64,000 bases of DNA from an uncultured Eubacteriales bacterium (lineage in GTDB: Bacteria; Bacillota; Clostridia; Lachnospirales; Bianqueaceae): contig OMYN01000009.1 of the NCBI GenBank assembly GCA_900315265.1, forward strand, positions 1 to 64,000, read 5' to 3'. The notes under the pieces are model-generated. The model saw nothing but the letters and a program-made list of their open reading frames with translations. It was not told where the DNA came from and made no database searches. Positions 236 through 9,113 of this stretch are shown here, one piece after another. The translations under genes were made by a program, and so were the position numbers. Within the stretch, counting starts at the first letter, position 1; each line of letters begins with the position of its first letter.

Positions 236-466
236 GTGGAAGGTTTATTGGGAAGCATCCTCGTTGTAGTGATCATCGCTGTTATTTTAGCCTTTGCTAT
301 CAGAAACGTAGTAAATGGAGGTCTGGACGGGTCCTGCGGAGACTGCAATGCCTGCGGAGACAATCGTAAAGCATGCAGGGCCGCTCATCGCAAGGCCCAA
401 AAATATATGAAAATGAAAGCAAAAGAAAAAAAGGCAATGGAGCGTATGAAAGCTGATCGGGCCTGA
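236..466 (+). CDS. FeoB-associated Cys-rich membrane protein
   Basis: This 76-residue protein has one N-terminal membrane helix (about residues 3-22), then a short Cys cluster (CGDCNACG, with a further Cys near residue 47), then a very Lys-rich tail. This layout matches the FeoB-associated Cys-rich family, small partners of the ferrous iron transporter; feoB itself is not in the window. The start is GTG, with an AAAGGCAGG ribosome site about 12 bases upstream; the nearby ATG at 214 is in another frame. It appears to be transcribed alone from the promoter at 151-180. The family assignment rests on size and cysteine pattern, so the role in iron uptake is inferred. Confidence 0.7.
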   Translation: MEGLLGSILVVVIIAVILAFAIRNVVNGGLDGSCGDCNACGDNRKACRAAHRKAQKYMKMKAKEKKAMERMKADRA

Positions 467-568
467 GAGAATGGAGTTAAAATTGCGACTGCAATTGCTA
501 CAGCAAGAGCAGTTGCAGTTATAGTTATCCTGATGTAAAATCCAACATGAAAAGCATTTATAGAAAGG

Positions 569-599
569 CGGGCTAACCGTATGACGGCGGATTAGCCCG
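569..599 (+). terminator. Hairpin between the Cys-rich gene and the GH2 gene
   Basis: CGGGCTAA pairs with TTAGCCCG, and CCG with CGG around a single bulged A. No T tract follows, so it is either a weak terminator of the upstream gene or a leader hairpin of the beta-galactosidase mRNA. The rest of 467-632 shows no clear gene. Confidence 0.45.
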
Positions 600-632
600 T
601 TAACTATATATACAAGGAGGACATACCATACT

Positions 633-3197
633 ATGTCAAATATCCGGTCTTACCGTCTTGACGAATGGAAATTCGGTTACGGACAGCCGAACAGCAATGA
701 TATCCTGCTTAGAAAAGATAAGGCTCAAACGGTGTCGATCCCTCACGATGCACTCATCGGAACGGAAACGGACAAAGATGCACCTTCAGGACCCTCAGGT
801 GGCTACTACAAGACTTCGTGCATCTATTATTACCGCTATGTATTCATCCCGCGCGAATGGGAAAATGATAAGGTCTATCTTTATTTTGACGGGGCTATGA
901 TCAATGCCCAAGTCAATGTCAACGGATCGGATGCTGCCCTTCATCATTACGGATATTCTCCGTTTTGGGTAGATCTTACGGACTATCTCACATTCGGGGA
1001 AGATAACCGGATCACCGTGACCCTGACTCCTGATCAGGAGCCTTTTTCCCGCTGGTACAGCGGGATGGGCCTGTACCGGCCTGTTTATCTGGTCCATACG
1101 CCACGTGTCCATTTCAAGGGGAACGCCCTCTATGCCTTTACGAAAAATATCGATTTTGACGCACAAGGCAATGCAGAGACCGCCTATCTTGAGGTAAGGG
1201 CCGATATTCAGAATGACAGCCTCAAAAAAGCACTGGTGAGGGTCACTTTTTATCTGACCGACAGGCAGGGACAGATCGTCTGCCAAAACGGCCGTAAAGC
1301 GGAGTCGCAGACCCTGATCGAAGTCGGGGCAGGAAAAAGCGCTCAAGCCCGTCAGACCTTGACTCTTGATGCCCCGAAACTCTGGAACGATCAGCACCCT
1401 TACTGCTATCAGCTGCATGCCAAAGCGGTCGCAGAGGGGACTTTTACGACTCATATCGTCAAATCAGATAATGCTTGTGTCGATGAAGATGCGGTCACCT
1501 TCGGCGTGCGGACTATATCAGCGGATGCAAGGCACGGACTGCGCATCAACGGGCAAACGGTCAAACTGAAGGGGGCCTGCCTGCATCATGACAACGGTCT
1601 TTTGGGAGCGGCAAGCCTGGAAGACGCCGAGGAACGCAAGGTCCGCCGTCTTAAGGAAATCGGTTTCAACGCTATCCGCACCGCCCACAATCCTCCGTCG
1701 GCATATTTGCTGGAGGTTTGCGACCGGCTGGGTATGTATGTGATCGATGAGCTATTTGACGTCTGGAACATGGCTAAGGTGCCTGGCGATTATCATCTCT
1801 TTTTCGCATCTGACTGGAGGCAGGATCTGCAAGCTTCTGTGCGCCGCGACCGCTGCCATCCGTCGGTCATTTTCTGGTCGACCGGCAACGAGATCTGCGA
1901 GCGGGGAGGCCTGGGCAGCGGTTACCAGCTGGCAGCGGAGATCGCCGAGGCATTCCGCAGCCTGGATCAAAGCCGCCTGATCACCAACGGGATCTGCTCA
2001 TTCTGGTCAGGCCAGGACGACAGGAATACTCTTAAGAGCCTTGATAAGGTGATGAATGTCCCCGACACGGTACTTCAGAATGCGGACATAACCGAAGATG
2101 ATGTATGGGAACGGTTGACTGAAGCTTTTGCCTGCAGCCTGGATGTCGTTGGTTATAACTATCTGGAAGACCATTACGCAAAAGATCATGAATGGTATCC
2201 GGAAAGAGTCATGCTGGGGACTGAAAACTATCCTAATAAAATCGGGGTCCACTGGCCCATGATCGAAAAGACGCCATATGTGATCGGCGATTTTACCTGG
2301 ACGGCCGTCGATTATATAGGTGAGGCCGGTGTAGGCAAGTCAGCTTTTCTGGATGAAGACGATCCCAAGTGGAAAGCCGGCCCCTTTGCTCTTATGAGCC
2401 ATGATTCCCAGTATCCCTGGCGGCTGGCCAATGACGCTGATCTGGATATCTGCGGCTTTACTACTCCGCAGGGATATTACCGGCATATCGTATTCGGAAG
2501 TATGGATACCGCCCTGTTCAGTTATGACCCGGCAGTTTATGGCAAAAAAGAACTGATCAGTTTGTGGGGCTTTACCGATGTCCGGAAAAGCTGGAATTGG
2601 AAGGGCTTTGAAGGAAAAAATGTGACACTGGCTGTTTTCAGCCGGGCGGATGAAGTAGAAATATTTGTTAACGGCGTCTCGATCGGGCGTAAAGAAAAAG
2701 ATCAGTCTTTAGCTGCCGCCATGCCCTATACCTTCACTTTTGACACGGTCTTTCAGCCGGGAAAGGTAGAAGCAGTCAGCTATAAGGGGGGCAGCAAAGT
2801 ATCTGCGGATACACTGGAAACGACCGGAGCGCCGGCAAAGATCAGCCTGACAGCAGAAAAACAAACGATAGAGGCAGACGGAGAGAGCCTTGCCTACGTG
2901 TGTGCAGAGGTTCAAGACTCGCAGGGGCAGCTGGTGCCTGATGCCGATCTGCCCGTCATGGCTGCCGTCGATCCTGACAGCAGCTGCGGCAGCATGGCAG
3001 GCTTCGGGTCTTCCGCACCCATGACTATGGACAATTACACAAAGGGCCTTGGCCACACCTATCGGGGACGGGCCCTGGCTATCGTGAGGGCAGGACAAAA
3101 GCCCGGACCGGTTCATCTTACGGTATCCTCGCAGGCAGAAGGCAGGATCCTGACCGCCCAAATGACGCTGAATGTTGTAAGCAAAGAAGGAAACTGA
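633..3197 (+). CDS. Glycoside hydrolase family 2 (beta-galactosidase-like)
   Basis: This 854-residue enzyme has the usual GH2 order: an N-terminal jelly-roll sugar-binding domain (to about residue 160, with the motif RWYSGMGLYRPV), an Ig-like domain, a TIM barrel (about 300-600), then a DUF4982-like domain and a C-terminal Ig-like domain. The acid/base Glu is in STGNE (about residue 419). The nucleophile is probably the Glu of LGTEN (about 530), before the conserved DFTWTAVDYIGE stretch. No signal peptide is seen, so it should act in the cytoplasm on imported beta-galactosides. The ATG has AAGGAGG 14 bases upstream. No sugar transporter or regulator lies beside it, so the substrate is unknown. 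The family is certain; beta-galactosidase against beta-glucuronidase is not settled from sequence. Confidence 0.88.
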   Translation: MSNIRSYRLDEWKFGYGQPNSNDILLRKDKAQTVSIPHDALIGTETDKDAPSGPSGGYYKTSCIYYYRYVFIPREWENDKVYLYFDGAMINAQVNVNGSDAALHHYGYSPFWVDLTDYLTFGEDNRITVTLTPDQEPFSRWYSGMGLYRPVYLVHTPRVHFKGNALYAFTKNIDFDAQGNAETAYLEVRADIQNDSLKKALVRVTFYLTDRQGQIVCQNGRKAESQTLIEVGAGKSAQARQTLTLDAPKLWNDQHPYCYQLHAKAVAEGTFTTHIVKSDNACVDEDAVTFGVRTISADARHGLRINGQTVKLKGACLHHDNGLLGAASLEDAEERKVRRLKEIGFNAIRTAHNPPSAYLLEVCDRLGMYVIDELFDVWNMAKVPGDYHLFFASDWRQDLQASVRRDRCHPSVIFWSTGNEICERGGLGSGYQLAAEIAEAFRSLDQSRLITNGICSFWSGQDDRNTLKSLDKVMNVPDTVLQNADITEDDVWERLTEAFACSLDVVGYNYLEDHYAKDHEWYPERVMLGTENYPNKIGVHWPMIEKTPYVIGDFTWTAVDYIGEAGVGKSAFLDEDDPKWKAGPFALMSHDSQYPWRLANDADLDICGFTTPQGYYRHIVFGSMDTALFSYDPAVYGKKELISLWGFTDVRKSWNWKGFEGKNVTLAVFSRADEVEIFVNGVSIGRKEKDQSLAAAMPYTFTFDTVFQPGKVEAVSYKGGSKVSADTLETTGAPAKISLTAEKQTIEADGESLAYVCAEVQDSQGQLVPDADLPVMAAVDPDSSCGSMAGFGSSAPMTMDNYTKGLGHTYRGRALAIVRAGQKPGPVHLTVSSQAEGRILTAQMTLNVVSKEGN

Positions 3198-3211
3198 CAG
3201 AATAGGGTCGA

Positions 3212-3240
3212 TTGACAGCATTAGCTCCAAGGGATATAAT
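3212..3240 (+). promoter_or_regulatory. Consensus sigma-A promoter for the ATP-grasp gene
   Basis: TTGACA (3212-3217) and TATAAT (3235-3240) are exactly 17 bp apart, a perfect consensus match, about 33 bp before the ATG. Confidence 0.88.
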
Positions 3241-3272
3241 AATAAAACTTTCATAATTTTTCGAGGTGGCTT

Positions 3273-4274
3273 ATGTCAAACGTGATCTATGTCATGAAGC
3301 GTCTTCTGCATATGAACTACAAGCAGATGTTTCAGAAAATAAACGGGATCCATAAAAAAACGGGCAAAAGCAGACTGTATATCCTGAAGGATATGCAGCG
3401 GTGCGCCAATCTATACGGGGCCGGCTACAGTGATTACGATCTGTATGAAATGTATAATCTGACCCCCCAGCAGCGCGACACGTATCTGACAAGGGGCCGC
3501 AACAACGCTCTGGTCGCTAAATACAATGACCCTGCTTATGTCGGCATCTTTGACGATAAGCTGCAGATGGATGTCCGTTTCAAAGATTTTCTGGGCCGGG
3601 ATTTCACGACTATGAAGACCGACACGGATAAAGATCAGGTCATAGCCTTTTTAAAGGCGCATGACATTGTTATAGCCAAACCGGCAAACGGGATGTGCGG
3701 CCACGGCGTCGAAAAGATCGAGGTAGCCAAAGAAGGGGGCCCTCAGAAGGTCTACGAGCATCTGAAAGCCAACAAGAGTGCTTATGTGGTCGAAGAAGTG
3801 ATCGTCCAGCATCCGGCTGTCAGTGCCATCTATCCGCTGGCGATCAATACCTGCCGTATCGTTACCATCTTGAAAGACGGAGAGGTACATGTTATCTGTG
3901 CTTACTTCCGCATCGGCAACAAAGGTCATCACGTTGACAATTTCAACAGTGAAGGAATGGTAGCGCCGGTCGATGAAAAGACGGGTATCGTTAAAGATTA
4001 TCCCATTGACAAAAAGAAGAATCTTTATAAGGTCCACCCCATGACAGGTACCCCCATTAAAGGGTTCCAATTCCCGGATTGGGATAAGGCCACCGATCTG
4101 GTCAAGCGGGCGTCGATGGTGATTCCCCAAGTCGCTTATATCGGCTGGGATGTGGCCTTTTCGGATAAAGGGCCTGTGCTGGTAGAAGGCAATGATTTTG
4201 CCGGTCACGATATTTATCAGCTCCCTGAGCATACCCACGATCATATGGGTATTTATCCCAAGTTTCAGATCTGA
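3273..4274 (+). CDS. Sugar-transfer-associated ATP-grasp protein
   Basis: A 333-residue protein resembling the ATP-grasp subfamily annotated as sugar-transfer associated, often found in polysaccharide or cell-envelope loci. The central part (about residues 125-150) has the nucleotide-binding Lys in IAKPANGMCGHGV. The C-terminal part has GWDVAFSDKGPVLVEGND, with the metal-binding acidic and Asn residues of the fold. ATP-grasp enzymes join a carboxylate to an amine or thiol through an acyl-phosphate; the substrates here are unknown. It is a single gene with its own perfect promoter and a GAGGTGG ribosome site. No glycan-synthesis genes are adjacent, so the usual context does not help. Confidence 0.72.
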   Translation: MSNVIYVMKRLLHMNYKQMFQKINGIHKKTGKSRLYILKDMQRCANLYGAGYSDYDLYEMYNLTPQQRDTYLTRGRNNALVAKYNDPAYVGIFDDKLQMDVRFKDFLGRDFTTMKTDTDKDQVIAFLKAHDIVIAKPANGMCGHGVEKIEVAKEGGPQKVYEHLKANKSAYVVEEVIVQHPAVSAIYPLAINTCRIVTILKDGEVHVICAYFRIGNKGHHVDNFNSEGMVAPVDEKTGIVKDYPIDKKKNLYKVHPMTGTPIKGFQFPDWDKATDLVKRASMVIPQVAYIGWDVAFSDKGPVLVEGNDFAGHDIYQLPEHTHDHMGIYPKFQI

Positions 4275-4278
4275 CCTA

Positions 4279-4307
4279 TTGACACGAGTCCGCGTAAATA
4301 CTATACT
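4279..4307 (+). promoter_or_regulatory. Sigma-A promoter of the SCIFF locus
   Basis: TTGACA (4279-4284) and TATACT (4302-4307) are 17 bp apart. It starts a few bases after the stop of the ATP-grasp gene and leaves a leader of about 90 nt before the precursor ATG. Confidence 0.82.
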
Positions 4308-4399
4308 TATTGCCAGCAAACTTCCTTCTTTGCGCTTTTTGTCCCAATGGCAAGGAGCCTGCGGGAGGGGGCTGTAAGAAGAAAAGAGAGGTGTTTCCA

Positions 4400-4546
4400 A
4401 TGGAAAGAATCAAAACTCTGAATACCAGAAATCTTGTTGAATCCGCTAATAAGGGTGGCTGCGGCGAGTGCCAGACTTCCTGCCAGTCCGCATCCAAAAC
4501 TTCCTGCGCAGTTGCAAACCAGAAATGCGAGCAGCTGAAGAAGTAA
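4400..4546 (+). CDS. scfA: SCIFF ranthipeptide precursor (five-Cys variant)
   Basis: A 48-residue peptide with the near-invariant SCIFF leader start (M-x-x-IKTLNT) and a Cys-rich core containing CQTSCQSA and KTSC. It is the substrate of the radical SAM enzyme immediately downstream, which installs Cys thioether bridges in the family. The name SCIFF stands for six cysteines in forty-five residues, but only five are present here: the position that is usually Cys in SACKTSC is Ser (codon tcc), and the usual Thr after the last KTSC is Ala. The ATG at 4400 follows a GAGAGG ribosome site. The context is canonical: own promoter, a terminator, then the maturase. The mature function is unknown; quorum-sensing-like roles have been proposed for some clostridia. 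Confidence 0.9.
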   Translation: MERIKTLNTRNLVESANKGGCGECQTSCQSASKTSCAVANQKCEQLKK

Positions 4547-4565
4547 TTTGAATTTCTGAAGGAAG

Positions 4566-4607
4566 AAACGCTGCGAAGGCATTGGAAAGTGCCCTGCAGC
4601 GTTTTTT
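4566..4607 (+). terminator. Attenuating terminator between scfA and scfB
   Basis: AAACGCTGC (4566-4574) pairs with GCAGCGTTT (4596-4604), followed by a T run. An inner GGCA/TGCC extends the helix. Partial read-through would make precursor mRNA in excess of maturase mRNA. Confidence 0.85.
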
Positions 4608-4647
4608 CATGTATAGATATCAAGGATAAGGATGGGAGATTTTGTCC

Positions 4648-6075
4648 ATGGTACATTGCTTTAAAAAGAACGGCTACAATATCGTTTTAGACGTCAACTC
4701 GGGAAGCGTTCACCAGGTCGATGATGTTGCCTACGATATGATCCAAATGTACGAAAGCAGCACGCCCGAACAGATCATCGAAGCGATGCTGGAAAAATAC
4801 AAGGACAGGGCGGATGTTACCCGTCAGGATCTGCAAGCTACGATCGAAGACATCGAAGAGCTCAAAAAGTCAGGACAGCTGTTTTCCAAGGACATGTTCG
4901 AAAATGTGCAGTGGAACTTTAAAAAGCGACAGTCGGTCCTGAAAGCCTTATGCCTGCATGTTGCCCAGGACTGTGATCTTGCCTGCAAATATTGCTTTGC
5001 CGGACAGGGAGAGTATCATACCGGCCGCAGTTTGATGTCCTACGAAACAGGCAAACAGGCGTTGGATTTTCTGATCCAAAGTTCCGGCAGCCGTCACAAC
5101 CTGGAAGTCGATTTCTTCGGCGGTGAGCCTCTTTTAAACTGGGACGTTGTCAAAAAACTGGTAGCCTACGGACGGTCCAAAGAAAAGGAATACGATAAAA
5201 ACTTCCGTTTTACCATTACGACCAACGGCATGGGCATCAATGACGACGTGATCGATTTCTGCAATAAAGAAATGAGCAACGTGGTCCTGAGCCTTGACGG
5301 ACGAAAGGAAACAAACGACCGTATGCGGTCGACCCGGGCCGGCGTGGGAAGCTACGACATTATCGTGCCTAAATTCAAAAAATTGGTGGAAAAGCGCCTG
5401 CAGGGTCCGGAGGGACGCCGTGAGTACTATATCCGCGGCACCTTTACTCATTACAATCTGGACTTTTTACAGGACATCCTGCATATGGCTGATCTTGGCT
5501 TTACCGAACTGTCCATCGAACCGGTCGTTGCTTCTCCGGATGCTCCCTACGCTTTGAAGCCGGAAGATCTGCCTGTGATCAATGAGCAGTATGACCAGCT
5601 GGCCAAAGAAATGCTGAAACGCAGAAGAGAAGGAAGAGGTTTTACCTTCTACCATTATATGATCGATCTGGAAGGCGGCCCCTGCATCGTTAAGCGTATT
5701 TCTGGCTGCGGAGTCGGCACCGAATACCTGGCGGTCAACGCCAATGGAGACCTGTATCCCTGTCATCAGTTCGCTGGTGAAGAGCCTTACAAGGTCGGCA
5801 ATGTCTACGATGGCATCACCCGTCCTGAAGTAGCCGATGAATTCAAAGAGTGCAACGTCTATTCTCACGAGGAGTGCAAGTCCTGTTTTGCCCGTTTGTA
5901 CTGCAGTGGCGGCTGCGCGGCCAATGCCATGCATACCACCGGCAGCATCAAAGGTGTATATAAGTTCGGCTGCGACATTCACCGCAACCGCATCGAGAAT
6001 GCTCTGATGCTGAAGGTAGCGGAGCAGGCCGATAAGGATGCGGCCGAGGAAGCAGAGCGGGAAAAGGCAGAATGA
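4648..6075 (+). CDS. scfB: SCIFF radical SAM maturase (thioether-forming)
   Basis: A radical SAM/SPASM enzyme that forms thioether links in the SCIFF peptide. The N-terminus (MVHCFKKNGYNIVLDVNSGS) is typical of the family and carries the peptide-recognition region. The SAM cluster motif CDLACKYC (Cx3Cx2C) lies near residue 109, followed by a GGEPLLN motif. The C-terminal SPASM domain, with Cys in CGVGTE, LYPCHQF, CKSCFARLYCSGGC and GCDIH, should hold two auxiliary 4Fe-4S clusters. The ATG at 4648 is chosen over an in-frame TTG six bases upstream because GGGAG sits at good spacing. It shares the precursor's promoter through an attenuating terminator. The length of 475 residues is normal for the family. 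Confidence 0.93.
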   Translation: MVHCFKKNGYNIVLDVNSGSVHQVDDVAYDMIQMYESSTPEQIIEAMLEKYKDRADVTRQDLQATIEDIEELKKSGQLFSKDMFENVQWNFKKRQSVLKALCLHVAQDCDLACKYCFAGQGEYHTGRSLMSYETGKQALDFLIQSSGSRHNLEVDFFGGEPLLNWDVVKKLVAYGRSKEKEYDKNFRFTITTNGMGINDDVIDFCNKEMSNVVLSLDGRKETNDRMRSTRAGVGSYDIIVPKFKKLVEKRLQGPEGRREYYIRGTFTHYNLDFLQDILHMADLGFTELSIEPVVASPDAPYALKPEDLPVINEQYDQLAKEMLKRRREGRGFTFYHYMIDLEGGPCIVKRISGCGVGTEYLAVNANGDLYPCHQFAGEEPYKVGNVYDGITRPEVADEFKECNVYSHEECKSCFARLYCSGGCAANAMHTTGSIKGVYKFGCDIHRNRIENALMLKVAEQADKDAAEEAEREKAE

Positions 6076-6143
6076 ACAAGTAAGGGCTTATAAACTGCAG
6101 GCTTTTATGTATGAATAAGTTTTGAAAATCTTCAAATATTTCG

Positions 6144-6172
6144 TTGACATAGTAAGGAACCTGTGGTATTAT
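6144..6172 (+). promoter_or_regulatory. tRNA promoter
   Basis: TTGACA (6144-6149) and TATTAT (6167-6172) are 17 bp apart, about 50 bp before tRNA-Thr. Confidence 0.82.
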
Positions 6173-6221
6173 AAACATCGCAGTTGCAAACGAGACATAC
6201 GCTCCGGTTGCAGTTGCGTAA

Positions 6222-6294
6222 GCTGCTGTGGCTCAGTTGGTAGAGCGTCGCCTTGGTAAGGCGGAGGTCACCAGTTCAAATCTGGTCAGCAGCT
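6222..6294 (+). tRNA. tRNA-Thr (anticodon GGU)
   Basis: The acceptor GCTGCTG pairs with CAGCAGC, the D arm is GCTC/GAGC, the anticodon stem TCGCC/GGCGG encloses TTGGTAA (anticodon GGT), and the T arm is ACCAG/CTGGT. The discriminator is T and CCA is not encoded. Confidence 0.95.
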
Positions 6295-6306
6295 CTGAGT
6301 ATAAGG

Positions 6307-6345
6307 CCCCGGAAAGACCTATAAAAAAGTCTTTCCGGGGTTTGT
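6307..6345 (+). terminator. Terminator after tRNA-Thr
   Basis: A perfect 12-bp stem, CCCCGGAAAGAC with GTCTTTCCGGGG, is followed by a short, interrupted T run. It lies between the tRNA and the dehydrogenase start, so some transcription may continue into the gene. Confidence 0.75.
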
Positions 6346-6365
6346 GTATACCCGGAGGCATTGCT

Positions 6366-7352
6366 ATGAAAATCATGTTTTACAACCTGCGTCCTTTTGA
6401 CGAGCTGGCTTATGCGGAAAAATTCAGTAAGGAATTCGGCATCGACATGGCCTGGACGCCGGATCATCCTAATGAAGAAAATTTGAAATTGGCGGAAGGC
6501 TGTCTTGCGGTCAGCACCAATCCCTGCAATATGCCGGCCTCTTTTCTGGATACCTTTGCCTCTATGGGTGTGAAATACCTGCCGTGCCGGTCCATCGGAT
6601 ACGATCATATCGACCTTGCCGAGGCGGCAAAACTGGGCATGAAGGTTTCCAACAGCAGTTACGCACCGGGAGGAGTCGCCAATTATACGGTTATGCTGAT
6701 CCTTATGCTTCTGCGTAAATTTATCCCGATCTATAAAAGGACGGAGATCCAGGATTTCTCCCTTCCGGGTAAAATGGGGCGGGATATTTCACGCTGCACG
6801 ATCGGCGTCATCGGTACCGGCAGGATCGGTAGTACGGTAATTCGGTCGCTGTCCGGTTTCGGATGCAGGATACTGGCTTATGACCTTTATCCTAACGATA
6901 CTGTCAAACAATACGCAGAATATGTTTCGATGGATCAGCTGCTGGCCCAATCTGACGTGATCACCCTGCATGCCCCGGCTACCAAGGAAAACTATCATAT
7001 GATCGACGAAAAGGCCTTTTCCAAGTGCAAGAAGGGCGTGTTGTTCGTAAATGCAGCCCGTGGTTCCCTGATCGATTCGGACGCCTTGATCCGGGCCCTG
7101 GAATCCGGTCAGGTAGGGGGAGCGGCCCTTGACGTGTTGGAGGATGAGAATGGTCTATATTATTACAATCGGCTCGGCGATGTGATCCGCAATGATGAAA
7201 TGAGCATCTTACGGTCCTTCCCCAATGTCGTTTTTTCCGCCCATACGGCTTTTTATACCGACGATGCGGTTGAATCTATGGTAAGGGCAGCCTTTGAAAG
7301 CGTTGACTGCTGGGTCAAAGGTGTAAAAAATCCTCATGAAGTCCGTTTGTAA
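6366..7352 (+). CDS. D-isomer-specific 2-hydroxyacid dehydrogenase (D-lactate dehydrogenase-like)
   Basis: A 328-residue NAD-dependent dehydrogenase that interconverts a 2-keto acid and its D-2-hydroxy acid. The Rossmann motif VIGTGRIGS lies near residue 144. The catalytic Arg is in NAARGSLID, the Glu in DVLEDE and the His in SAHTAFYT. The sequence is closest in style to D-lactate dehydrogenase/VanH proteins. The ATG at 6366 has GGAGG nine bases upstream. A longer in-frame reading starts inside the tRNA-Thr gene and is rejected. It stands alone, between the tRNA terminator and a strong convergent terminator. Lactate fermentation is the likely role; substrate preference cannot be read from sequence. 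Confidence 0.87.
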   Translation: MKIMFYNLRPFDELAYAEKFSKEFGIDMAWTPDHPNEENLKLAEGCLAVSTNPCNMPASFLDTFASMGVKYLPCRSIGYDHIDLAEAAKLGMKVSNSSYAPGGVANYTVMLILMLLRKFIPIYKRTEIQDFSLPGKMGRDISRCTIGVIGTGRIGSTVIRSLSGFGCRILAYDLYPNDTVKQYAEYVSMDQLLAQSDVITLHAPATKENYHMIDEKAFSKCKKGVLFVNAARGSLIDSDALIRALESGQVGGAALDVLEDENGLYYYNRLGDVIRNDEMSILRSFPNVVFSAHTAFYTDDAVESMVRAAFESVDCWVKGVKNPHEVRL

Positions 7353-7416
7353 CAGGGCTGTCGACAGATGCCATATATGTTTTTTGATGTCATTATACGA
7401 ATAAATAAGGACAATC

Positions 7417-7466
7417 AAAAGGTGCTGTCAGGAATCGGAGTATCGGTTCTTGGCAGCACCTTTTTT
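7417..7466. terminator. Bidirectional terminator between convergent genes
   Basis: AAAAGGTGCTG pairs with CAGCACCTTTT, flanked by A and T runs. It separates the dehydrogenase from the minus-strand beta-CASP hydrolase. Confidence 0.85.
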
Positions 7467-7481
7467 GTTTTTCATAAGGAA

Positions 7482-9113
7482 TCATTTCCATTTTTCAACA
7501 AGGGACAGGATATCATCCGTAAACTTGCCAAGGTCTTTATTGGCCCATCCGGAGCTCTTTTCGACCAGGTTCTTCAAGCGGCCGAAAGCAGAAACCAACC
7601 GCTGATAAGCCAGGGATGCAGTGCGGACAGCTGCGGAAGTTCCGGCAGCACGATGCTCGATCGGCTTCGGAGGCGCTTCATATATCCAGCAGCCGTTGAC
7701 CAAATCATAAACAGATCCGGAATAAGGAGCCTTGGCCAGATCATCCTTCCCGAAAGTGTCGTTGAGCAGAGCGGCAAAAAGATCGGTGACCTTGTCCTCG
7801 CCGTGGACAACGAAGATGCGGGAGGGCTGCTTTTTCATGGATTTGACCCAGTCGATCAGCATTTTCTGATCGGCATGGCCACTAATACCGGGCAGCTGGC
7901 AGATGGAAGCTTTGACGGCGATCTCATCGCCGAACAAGGTGACCGAAAAGTCTTCGTGAGCGGCAGCGCCATCCAGGAGACGTCTGCCTAAAGATCCCTC
8001 TGCCTGATAGCCTACGAAGAGAATGGTCGACTCGGGCCGCCATAAATTATATTTCAAATGATGGCGGATACGGCCGGCATCGCACATACCGGAGGCGGAA
8101 ATGATGACTTTGGGATCTTTATTGTAGTTGATTGCTTTGGATTCGTCGCCGGTAACGGCCGTGCACAGACCGGGAAAGTCGATAGGATCGATGCCCTGAC
8201 TCAAGAGCTGGCTGGCTTCCTGATCGAAGCAGCTGTCCTGGTTGCGGGTAAAGATCTTGGTGGCTTCTACTGCCAGAGGACTGTCGACGTAAACCTTGAA
8301 GTCGGGAAAATCGGGGACCAGATTGCGGTTCTTGATCTCGCGGAAATAGTAAAGCATCTCCTGGGTACGCCCAACGGCAAAGGAGGGGATCACCAGGTTG
8401 CCGCCGGCCTTAAAAGTGCGTTCCAGGATCTCGGCCAGAGGCTGAATGTAATCGGCCGGTTTTTCGTGGATACGATCGCCGTAGGTCGACTCGATGAGCA
8501 GGTAGTCGCCGCCTTCGACCGGCTGGGGATCGCGCAGCAAAGGCTGGTTGGTGTTGCCGACGTCGCCGGAGAAGACGATCTTGCGGCTGACCCCGCTTTC
8601 GGTCGCCCATACTTCGATGGCGCTGGATCCCAGAAGGTGTCCGACGTCGGTAAAGCGGATGCTGATCCCCGGGCATAAATCGATCTTCTGGTCGTAATCG
8701 CAGCCTATGAAAAGGGTCATCAGGCCGTTTACGTCTTCCATGGTGTATGGCGGTTCGATAGGTTCCAGTCCTTTACGCTGGCGTTTGCGGTTTTTCCACT
8801 CAGCGTCGGACTCCTGGATGTGAGCGCTGTCGGCCAGCATGATCGAGCACAGATCCAGCGTGGCCTTGGTAGTCAGCACGGTCCCGCGGAAGCCCTGCTT
8901 GTATAAGAAGGGGAGCATGCCGGTGTGATCCAGATGGGCATGGGTGATCAGCACATAATCAACGTCTTTGGCAGCAATGGGAAGGTCGATATTTTCATAT
9001 AGATCCCGTCCCTGCTGCATACCAAAGTCGACCAGGATGTTCTTTCCGGCAGCCTGCAGATAATGACAGCTGCCGGTAACTTCGTGGTCGGCTCCGATAA
9101 AGGTAAGTTTCAT
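7482..9113 (-). CDS. Beta-CASP metallo-beta-lactamase RNA hydrolase
   Basis: A 543-residue zinc hydrolase of the MBL/beta-CASP type (YSH1/CPSF-like), a group of RNA endo/exonucleases. Visible signatures are the metal motif THAHLDHTG (about residue 57), a later His in the GHLLGSS stretch, VFSGDVG, the beta-CASP domain (GNLVIPSFAVGRTQEML), ASGMCDAGRI, and the C-terminal His motifs SGHADQ and VVHGE of the RNA-specificity domain. The ATG has AAGGAG upstream. It lies just downstream of, and possibly is transcribed with, the ABC exporter pair. The RNA target is unknown; a general RNA-processing role is inferred from the family. Confidence 0.87.
   Translation of the reverse strand: MKLTFIGADHEVTGSCHYLQAAGKNILVDFGMQQGRDLYENIDLPIAAKDVDYVLITHAHLDHTGMLPFLYKQGFRGTVLTTKATLDLCSIMLADSAHIQESDAEWKNRKRQRKGLEPIEPPYTMEDVNGLMTLFIGCDYDQKIDLCPGISIRFTDVGHLLGSSAIEVWATESGVSRKIVFSGDVGNTNQPLLRDPQPVEGGDYLLIESTYGDRIHEKPADYIQPLAEILERTFKAGGNLVIPSFAVGRTQEMLYYFREIKNRNLVPDFPDFKVYVDSPLAVEATKIFTRNQDSCFDQEASQLLSQGIDPIDFPGLCTAVTGDESKAINYNKDPKVIISASGMCDAGRIRHHLKYNLWRPESTILFVGYQAEGSLGRRLLDGAAAHEDFSVTLFGDEIAVKASICQLPGISGHADQKMLIDWVKSMKKQPSRIFVVHGEDKVTDLFAALLNDTFGKDDLAKAPYSGSVYDLVNGCWIYEAPPKPIEHRAAGTSAAVRTASLAYQRLVSAFGRLKNLVEKSSGWANKDLGKFTDDILSLVEKWK

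Follow-up and report, generated by a model that had tools for sequence, protein, structure and literature searches.

The window analyzed here, a stretch of 64,000 nucleotides, encodes a SCIFF precursor, scfA, followed by its maturase, scfB (Table 1). SCIFF systems rank among the best-conserved peptide systems of Clostridia. The precursor model TIGR03973 describes them by six cysteines in about 45 residues and an adjoining TIGR03974 maturase. The window peptide, MERIKTLNTRNLVESANKGGCGECQTSCQSASKTSCAVANQKCEQLKK, has 48 residues (coded at positions 4400-4543, with the stop codon TAA at 4544-4546) and scores above the cut-off of this model. Its maturase lies about 100 bases downstream, but the peptide contains five cysteines (positions 21, 24, 28, 36, and 43) and a serine at position 32, and it is filed here as a five-cysteine variant, not as a typical SCIFF. 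Over the respective cut-offs, the genome has a single SCIFF precursor and a single maturase; a second SCIFF copy with Cys32 was sought in this genome and not found. A PDB search with the peptide gave no match.

Table 1. Features of the scfAB locus (window positions)
Feature	Position	Strand	Basis
Promoter-like TTGACA-17-TATACT upstream of scfA	4279..4307	+	11/12 matches; number of such sites not above chance
SCIFF precursor gene scfA, 48 amino acids, five core Cys	4400..4546	+	TIGR03973, 79.1 bits (cut-off 50)
Leader, residues 1-18	4400..4453	+	Register as in the CteA leader (PMC8326336)
Residues 24-28, C24-Q-T26-S-C28, candidate alternative cross-link site	4469..4483	+	Read from sequence; use of the site putative
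Codon 32, TCC, Ser; donor Cys32 in CteA and Tte1186a	4493..4495	+	Sequence
Codon 34, ACT, Thr; acceptor in coexpression study, kept	4499..4501	+	Thr in 193/193 distinct peptides
Codon 37, GCA, Ala; Ser in almost every other Ser32 peptide	4508..4510	+	Sequence, alignment
Stable, terminator-like hairpin with U run between scfA and scfB	4562..4608	+	z -4.6 (-37.9 kcal/mol for the entire spacer)
SCIFF maturase gene scfB, radical SAM/SPASM	4648..6075	+	TIGR03974, 730.2 bits (cut-off 425)

The scfB product consists of PqqD-like, radical SAM, and SPASM domains and matches the CteB structure (5wgg) across nearly its full length (E value of 2e-160). It keeps the CX3CX2C radical SAM motif (C111, C115, and C118) and the SPASM cysteines (C356, C374, C412, C415, C421, C425, and C444; all numbered from TTG 4642), confirming the initial annotation's impression of a complete maturase. 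As the start codon, ATG 4648 is favored over TTG 4642 by its spacing to GGAGA. The neighbors of scfAB (positions 236-9113) encode a small FeoB-associated Cys-rich protein, a family 2 glycosidase, an ATP-grasp protein, tRNA-Thr, a 2-hydroxyacid dehydrogenase, and a beta-CASP metallo-hydrolase; neither an exporter nor a peptidase lies among them.

Register of the peptide and the published cross-links

In both Tte1186a and CteA, the donor of the cross-link is Cys32; in vitro studies assigned Thr37 as the acceptor (a Cys32-Thr37 bridge), whereas a later coexpression study in E. coli assigned the gamma carbon of Thr34 (Cys32-Thr34) (PMC8326336, PMC8172795). CteA has an 18-residue leader, with Cys21 as the third core residue and Cys32 as the fourth cysteine (PMC8326336). 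Given that the first three cysteines of the window peptide fall at 21, 24, and 28, its register is the published one, and the missing fourth cysteine falls on residue 32. Leader length, register, and core motif are thus shared with CteA/CteB (thermocellin), the SCIFF system of Clostridium thermocellum, as is an adjoining maturase with leader-binding, radical SAM, and SPASM domains. However, Cys32 and Thr37 of CteA, whose known cross-link joins Cys32 to Thr37 in vitro or to Thr34 upon coexpression (PMC8326336), are replaced by Ser32 and Ala37. Since Cys32 donates in both published bridges, neither can form in the window peptide, including the Cys32-Thr37 bridge reported for Tte1186a/Tte1186 of Caldanaerobacter subterraneus, with which it shares family and positions.

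The initial annotation had read five cysteines, Ser (TCC) at residue 32, and Ala (GCA) at residue 37 and had equated these two positions with the partners of the Cys32-Thr37 assignment, all of which agrees with the sequence and the literature. Its conclusion that this bridge is not made holds in the wider sense that any Cys32 bridge is impossible, but it took no account of the later Cys32-Thr34 assignment, whose acceptor is kept here. A more distant comparison is offered by PapA/PapB (freyrasin), likewise with a related SPASM enzyme, whose product is a ranthipeptide, a class defined by a thioether to a non-alpha carbon; PapA differs by its Cys-X3-Asp motifs, and the PapB model gives scfB 270 bits, below its cut-off of 340.

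Distribution of Ser32 and its pairing with residue 37

The change is not confined to this genome: Ser32 turned out to be the state of a large lineage, in which Ser32/Ser37 is the usual pair. The window's family comprises 19 genomes, and of the 15 from which a precursor was recovered, seven, from genera g1 and g2, carry Ser32 (with Ser37 in six and Ala37 in the window), the other eight having Cys32-Gly37. Related loci were sought with the window maturase as the query, so that sampling is uneven and the following proportions do not represent frequencies in nature: among the 80 named loci with related maturases that were listed, 44 have Ser32-Ser37 and the rest Cys32-Gly37, and among the 150 matches listed for family f26, which holds all types, 59 have Ser32 (58 with Ser37 and 1 with Ala37), 55 have Cys32-Gly37, and 36 have Cys32-Thr37. 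A class-wide sample contained mostly Cys32 with Thr37 or Gly37. Altogether, Ser32 recurs in about a hundred related genomes, a few possibly counted twice across sample sets, from several families.

The recurrence of Ser32, in seven members of the family and in many further genomes, rules out a sequencing error at codon 32. An artifact of sequencing, assembly, or start-site choice could still be suspected given that the assemblies are drafts and that G016, a genome of the same genus, has a different type with Cys36 replaced; yet the number of genomes, the use of several serine codons, and the intact reading frames render this explanation practically negligible. When 300 genomes of the phylum were searched for the TCN-codon version of Ser32, the window was the sole hit, which is uninformative, as most Ser32 codons are AGC.

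The G016 peptide (locus L015, G016:C136) is a different five-cysteine peptide from the window's genus, with Ser in place of Cys36, Cys32 kept, and Gly37. Its maturase clusters with the Cys32-Gly37 block described below, and the locus could stem from transfer or from contamination of the draft genome by a foreign contig. Elsewhere, locus L273 (G1090:C7:80900-83700) has one open frame with two complete tandem SCIFF precursors (leader-core-leader-core, with a 47-residue period) followed by one single maturase, and genome G1139 has two SCIFF maturases over the cut-off (703 and 673 bits).

In our first survey of 193 distinct peptides, residue 32 is Cys (160) or Ser (33), and residue 37 is Gly (87), Thr (73), Ser (32), or Ala (1). 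Thr is therefore not the usual residue after the last cysteine of the block, as had been assumed; Gly is commoner. Residues 20-25, 27-31, 33-35, 40, 41, 43, and 44 are invariant across this set, and Cys36 is lost in one peptide (L015). Loci collected later from f26 show rare variants at residues 19, 23, and 26, with residue 34 still Thr. We observed that Cys32 is always paired with Gly37 or Thr37 and Ser32 always with Ser37 or, twice, Ala37; no discordant pair (Ser32 with Gly37 or Thr37, or Cys32 with Ser37 or Ala37) was seen in the sampled peptides.

All five remaining cysteines are invariant in the Ser32 peptides. A compensating cysteine elsewhere in the peptide was considered and rejected: the window peptide has none, and those of other Ser32 peptides are inconsistent, the 33 distinct sequences having no extra cysteine in 12 cases, one in the leader in 12, and one in the tail in 9. 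A leader cysteine is present in Cys32 peptides, too.

The Cys32 peptides themselves bear on the disagreement between the published Cys32-Thr34 and Cys32-Thr37 bridges. In over half of the distinct ones (87 of 160, those of Faecalibacterium, Fournierella, and Bacilliculturomica among them), Gly37 makes a Cys32-Thr37 bridge impossible, whereas none of them lacks the residues for a Cys32-Thr34 bridge. The combination of an invariant Thr34 with Gly37 in roughly half of the Cys32 peptides favors the Cys32-Thr34 assignment and points to Thr34 as the probable normal acceptor, with the qualification that nearly all core residues are invariant, so that the invariance of Thr26 or Thr34 as such singles out no acceptor.

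The spacer between the two genes can also be compared across types. Hairpins similar to that of the window were found in 45 of 51 Ser32-Ser37 loci, 59 of 66 Cys32-Gly37 loci, and 16 of 41 Cys32-Thr37 loci. The probable effect of the hairpin is that precursor transcripts outnumber those of the maturase.

The Ser32 lineage on the maturase tree

A tree built from 151 maturases groups the Cys32-Thr37 rows in one block (support of 100) and most Cys32-Gly37 rows in another (support of 100). The Ser32 rows make up a third block, within or beside which lie six Cys32-Gly37 rows, five from the window's own family plus L044. Peptide type needs 4 changes on this tree, compared with 68.8 when shuffled, and residue 32 needs 2-3. 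Several independent origins of Ser32 were considered and set aside: the best trees need these 2-3 changes, but a single Ser32 clade is not rejected (AU test, P values of 0.20 and 0.26). We likewise set aside repeated, independent coupled changes at residues 32 and 37, for which a sign test is precluded by too few changes. Whether the two residues change together, as the initial annotation asked, is answered by a perfect association in the sample, but only 2-3 changes lie behind that association. These results suggest that Ser32 marks essentially one old lineage, a single clade being neither shown nor rejected and the state not strictly irreversible.

The Cys32-Gly37 type (the three genera named above; loci L064, L092, and L048) is nearest to the Ser32 lineage on the tree and has the same core otherwise, but it differs from the window in having six cysteines with the donor Cys32 retained, and it lacks Thr37. 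All nearest Cys32 relatives of the lineage have Gly37, both serine sites are most often coded by AGC, and TGC to AGC as well as GGC to AGC are single-base steps, so that a route from Cys32-Gly37 to Ser32-Ser37, with either step first, is likely. The presence of Ala37 in two distant Ser32 rows (the window and L244) marks it as a later change from Ser37. This history bears on the original proposal that a Cys32-Thr37 bridge disappeared through the joint loss of both partners. The positions agree with the in vitro assignment (PMC8326336, PMC8172795), but Gly37 already occurs in the many Cys32 peptides counted above and in the nearest Cys32 relatives, and Ala37 derives from Ser37, which makes such a joint loss very improbable.

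Several peptide types coexist within each of the host families f1, f26, and f87, and two within genus g652; this scatter of types suggests that precursor and maturase may have been transferred as a unit.

At the codon level, the Ser32 rows show at least six changes among AGC, AGT, TCT, TCA, and TCC at codon 32 without any change of residue; AGC is used by the Ser32 members of the window's genus, but TCC by the window. At codon 34, 12 changes were counted, none of them altering the residue, and at codon 37 there were 16, one of which did. The repeated synonymous changes at codon 32, with the residue constant, indicate that serine is held by selection and that the gene is not decaying. Hence, the window peptide very probably represents an old, actively maintained five-cysteine SCIFF subtype without any Cys32 bridge.

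Candidate products of the Ser32 systems

In this subtype, the maturase would bind the leader through its PqqD-like domain and still act on the core, with an outcome that differs from that in CteA. The segment CQTSC (residues 24-28) is an internal copy of C32-K-T34-S-C36, in which the window has Ser at residue 32. Given that the donor of the second copy is lost and that of the first is kept, the enzyme of the Ser32 lineage may use the upstream copy, and we tentatively regard a thioether from Cys24 to Thr26 as the likeliest single product. Thr occupies residue 26 in all 33 distinct Ser32 peptides and throughout the Cys32-Gly37 type, whereas 12 of 73 Cys32-Thr37 peptides have Asn or Ala there, a pattern that would fit a Cys24-Thr26 link, if weakly.

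Alternatively, Cys36 (or Cys28) might take over as the donor to Thr34, so that the ring would be reversed instead of moved. No Ser32 peptide departs from Thr34 or Cys36, and the two are spaced like Cys32 and Thr34, but these residues hardly vary in the Cys32 types either and thus say nothing specific about Ser32 peptides; we consider this donor switch rather unlikely. Ser32 itself might also be modified. The SPASM maturase of the Ser32 lineage is a relative of the Ser/Cys-oxidizing sulfatase maturases, and it is conceivable, if improbable, that it oxidizes Ser32 or links it, either in an ether or as the acceptor for Cys28 or Cys36, which would yield a novel kind of SCIFF product. Finally, the Ser32 peptides may not be cross-linked at all, with the maturase retained to bind the leader or for other chemistry, or with the five cysteines forming a metal or redox site. 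Their invariance despite the loss of the known donor would suit such a role, but no Ser32 maturase whose sequence spans the radical SAM and SPASM motifs lacks their cysteines, which is unexpected for binding alone and leads us to regard uncross-linked peptides as unlikely.

The wider point is that a natural lineage keeps peptide and enzyme without the sole known donor cysteine, and the known bridge is therefore not the universal product. We found no description of the Ser32 subtype in the literature searched, which on CteA and the ranthipeptides consisted of reviews. According to a paper that reprised the family models, all clear ScfA homologs seem to be equivalent in function (PMC5300114), a statement that the Ser32 subtype makes testable.

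Residues of the maturase were compared with the Ser32 state as well. V358, beside the SPASM cysteine Cys356 (near window positions 5713-5715), is Val in 66 of 66 Ser32 rows, while the two main Cys32 types lack Val at this site and have mostly Ser or Ala. It was rejected as a marker of the Ser32 state, since the nested Cys32-Gly37 rows share it, and it marks the lineage instead. Residues 350, 368, 409, and 432 appear to follow the Ser32 state better than residue 358, suggestively but not cleanly. Residue 453 (near 5998-6000), in the C-terminal helix (RIECAIM), is Cys in 135 of 149 maturases; the window's genus and a few more have Asn, with no link to Ser32.
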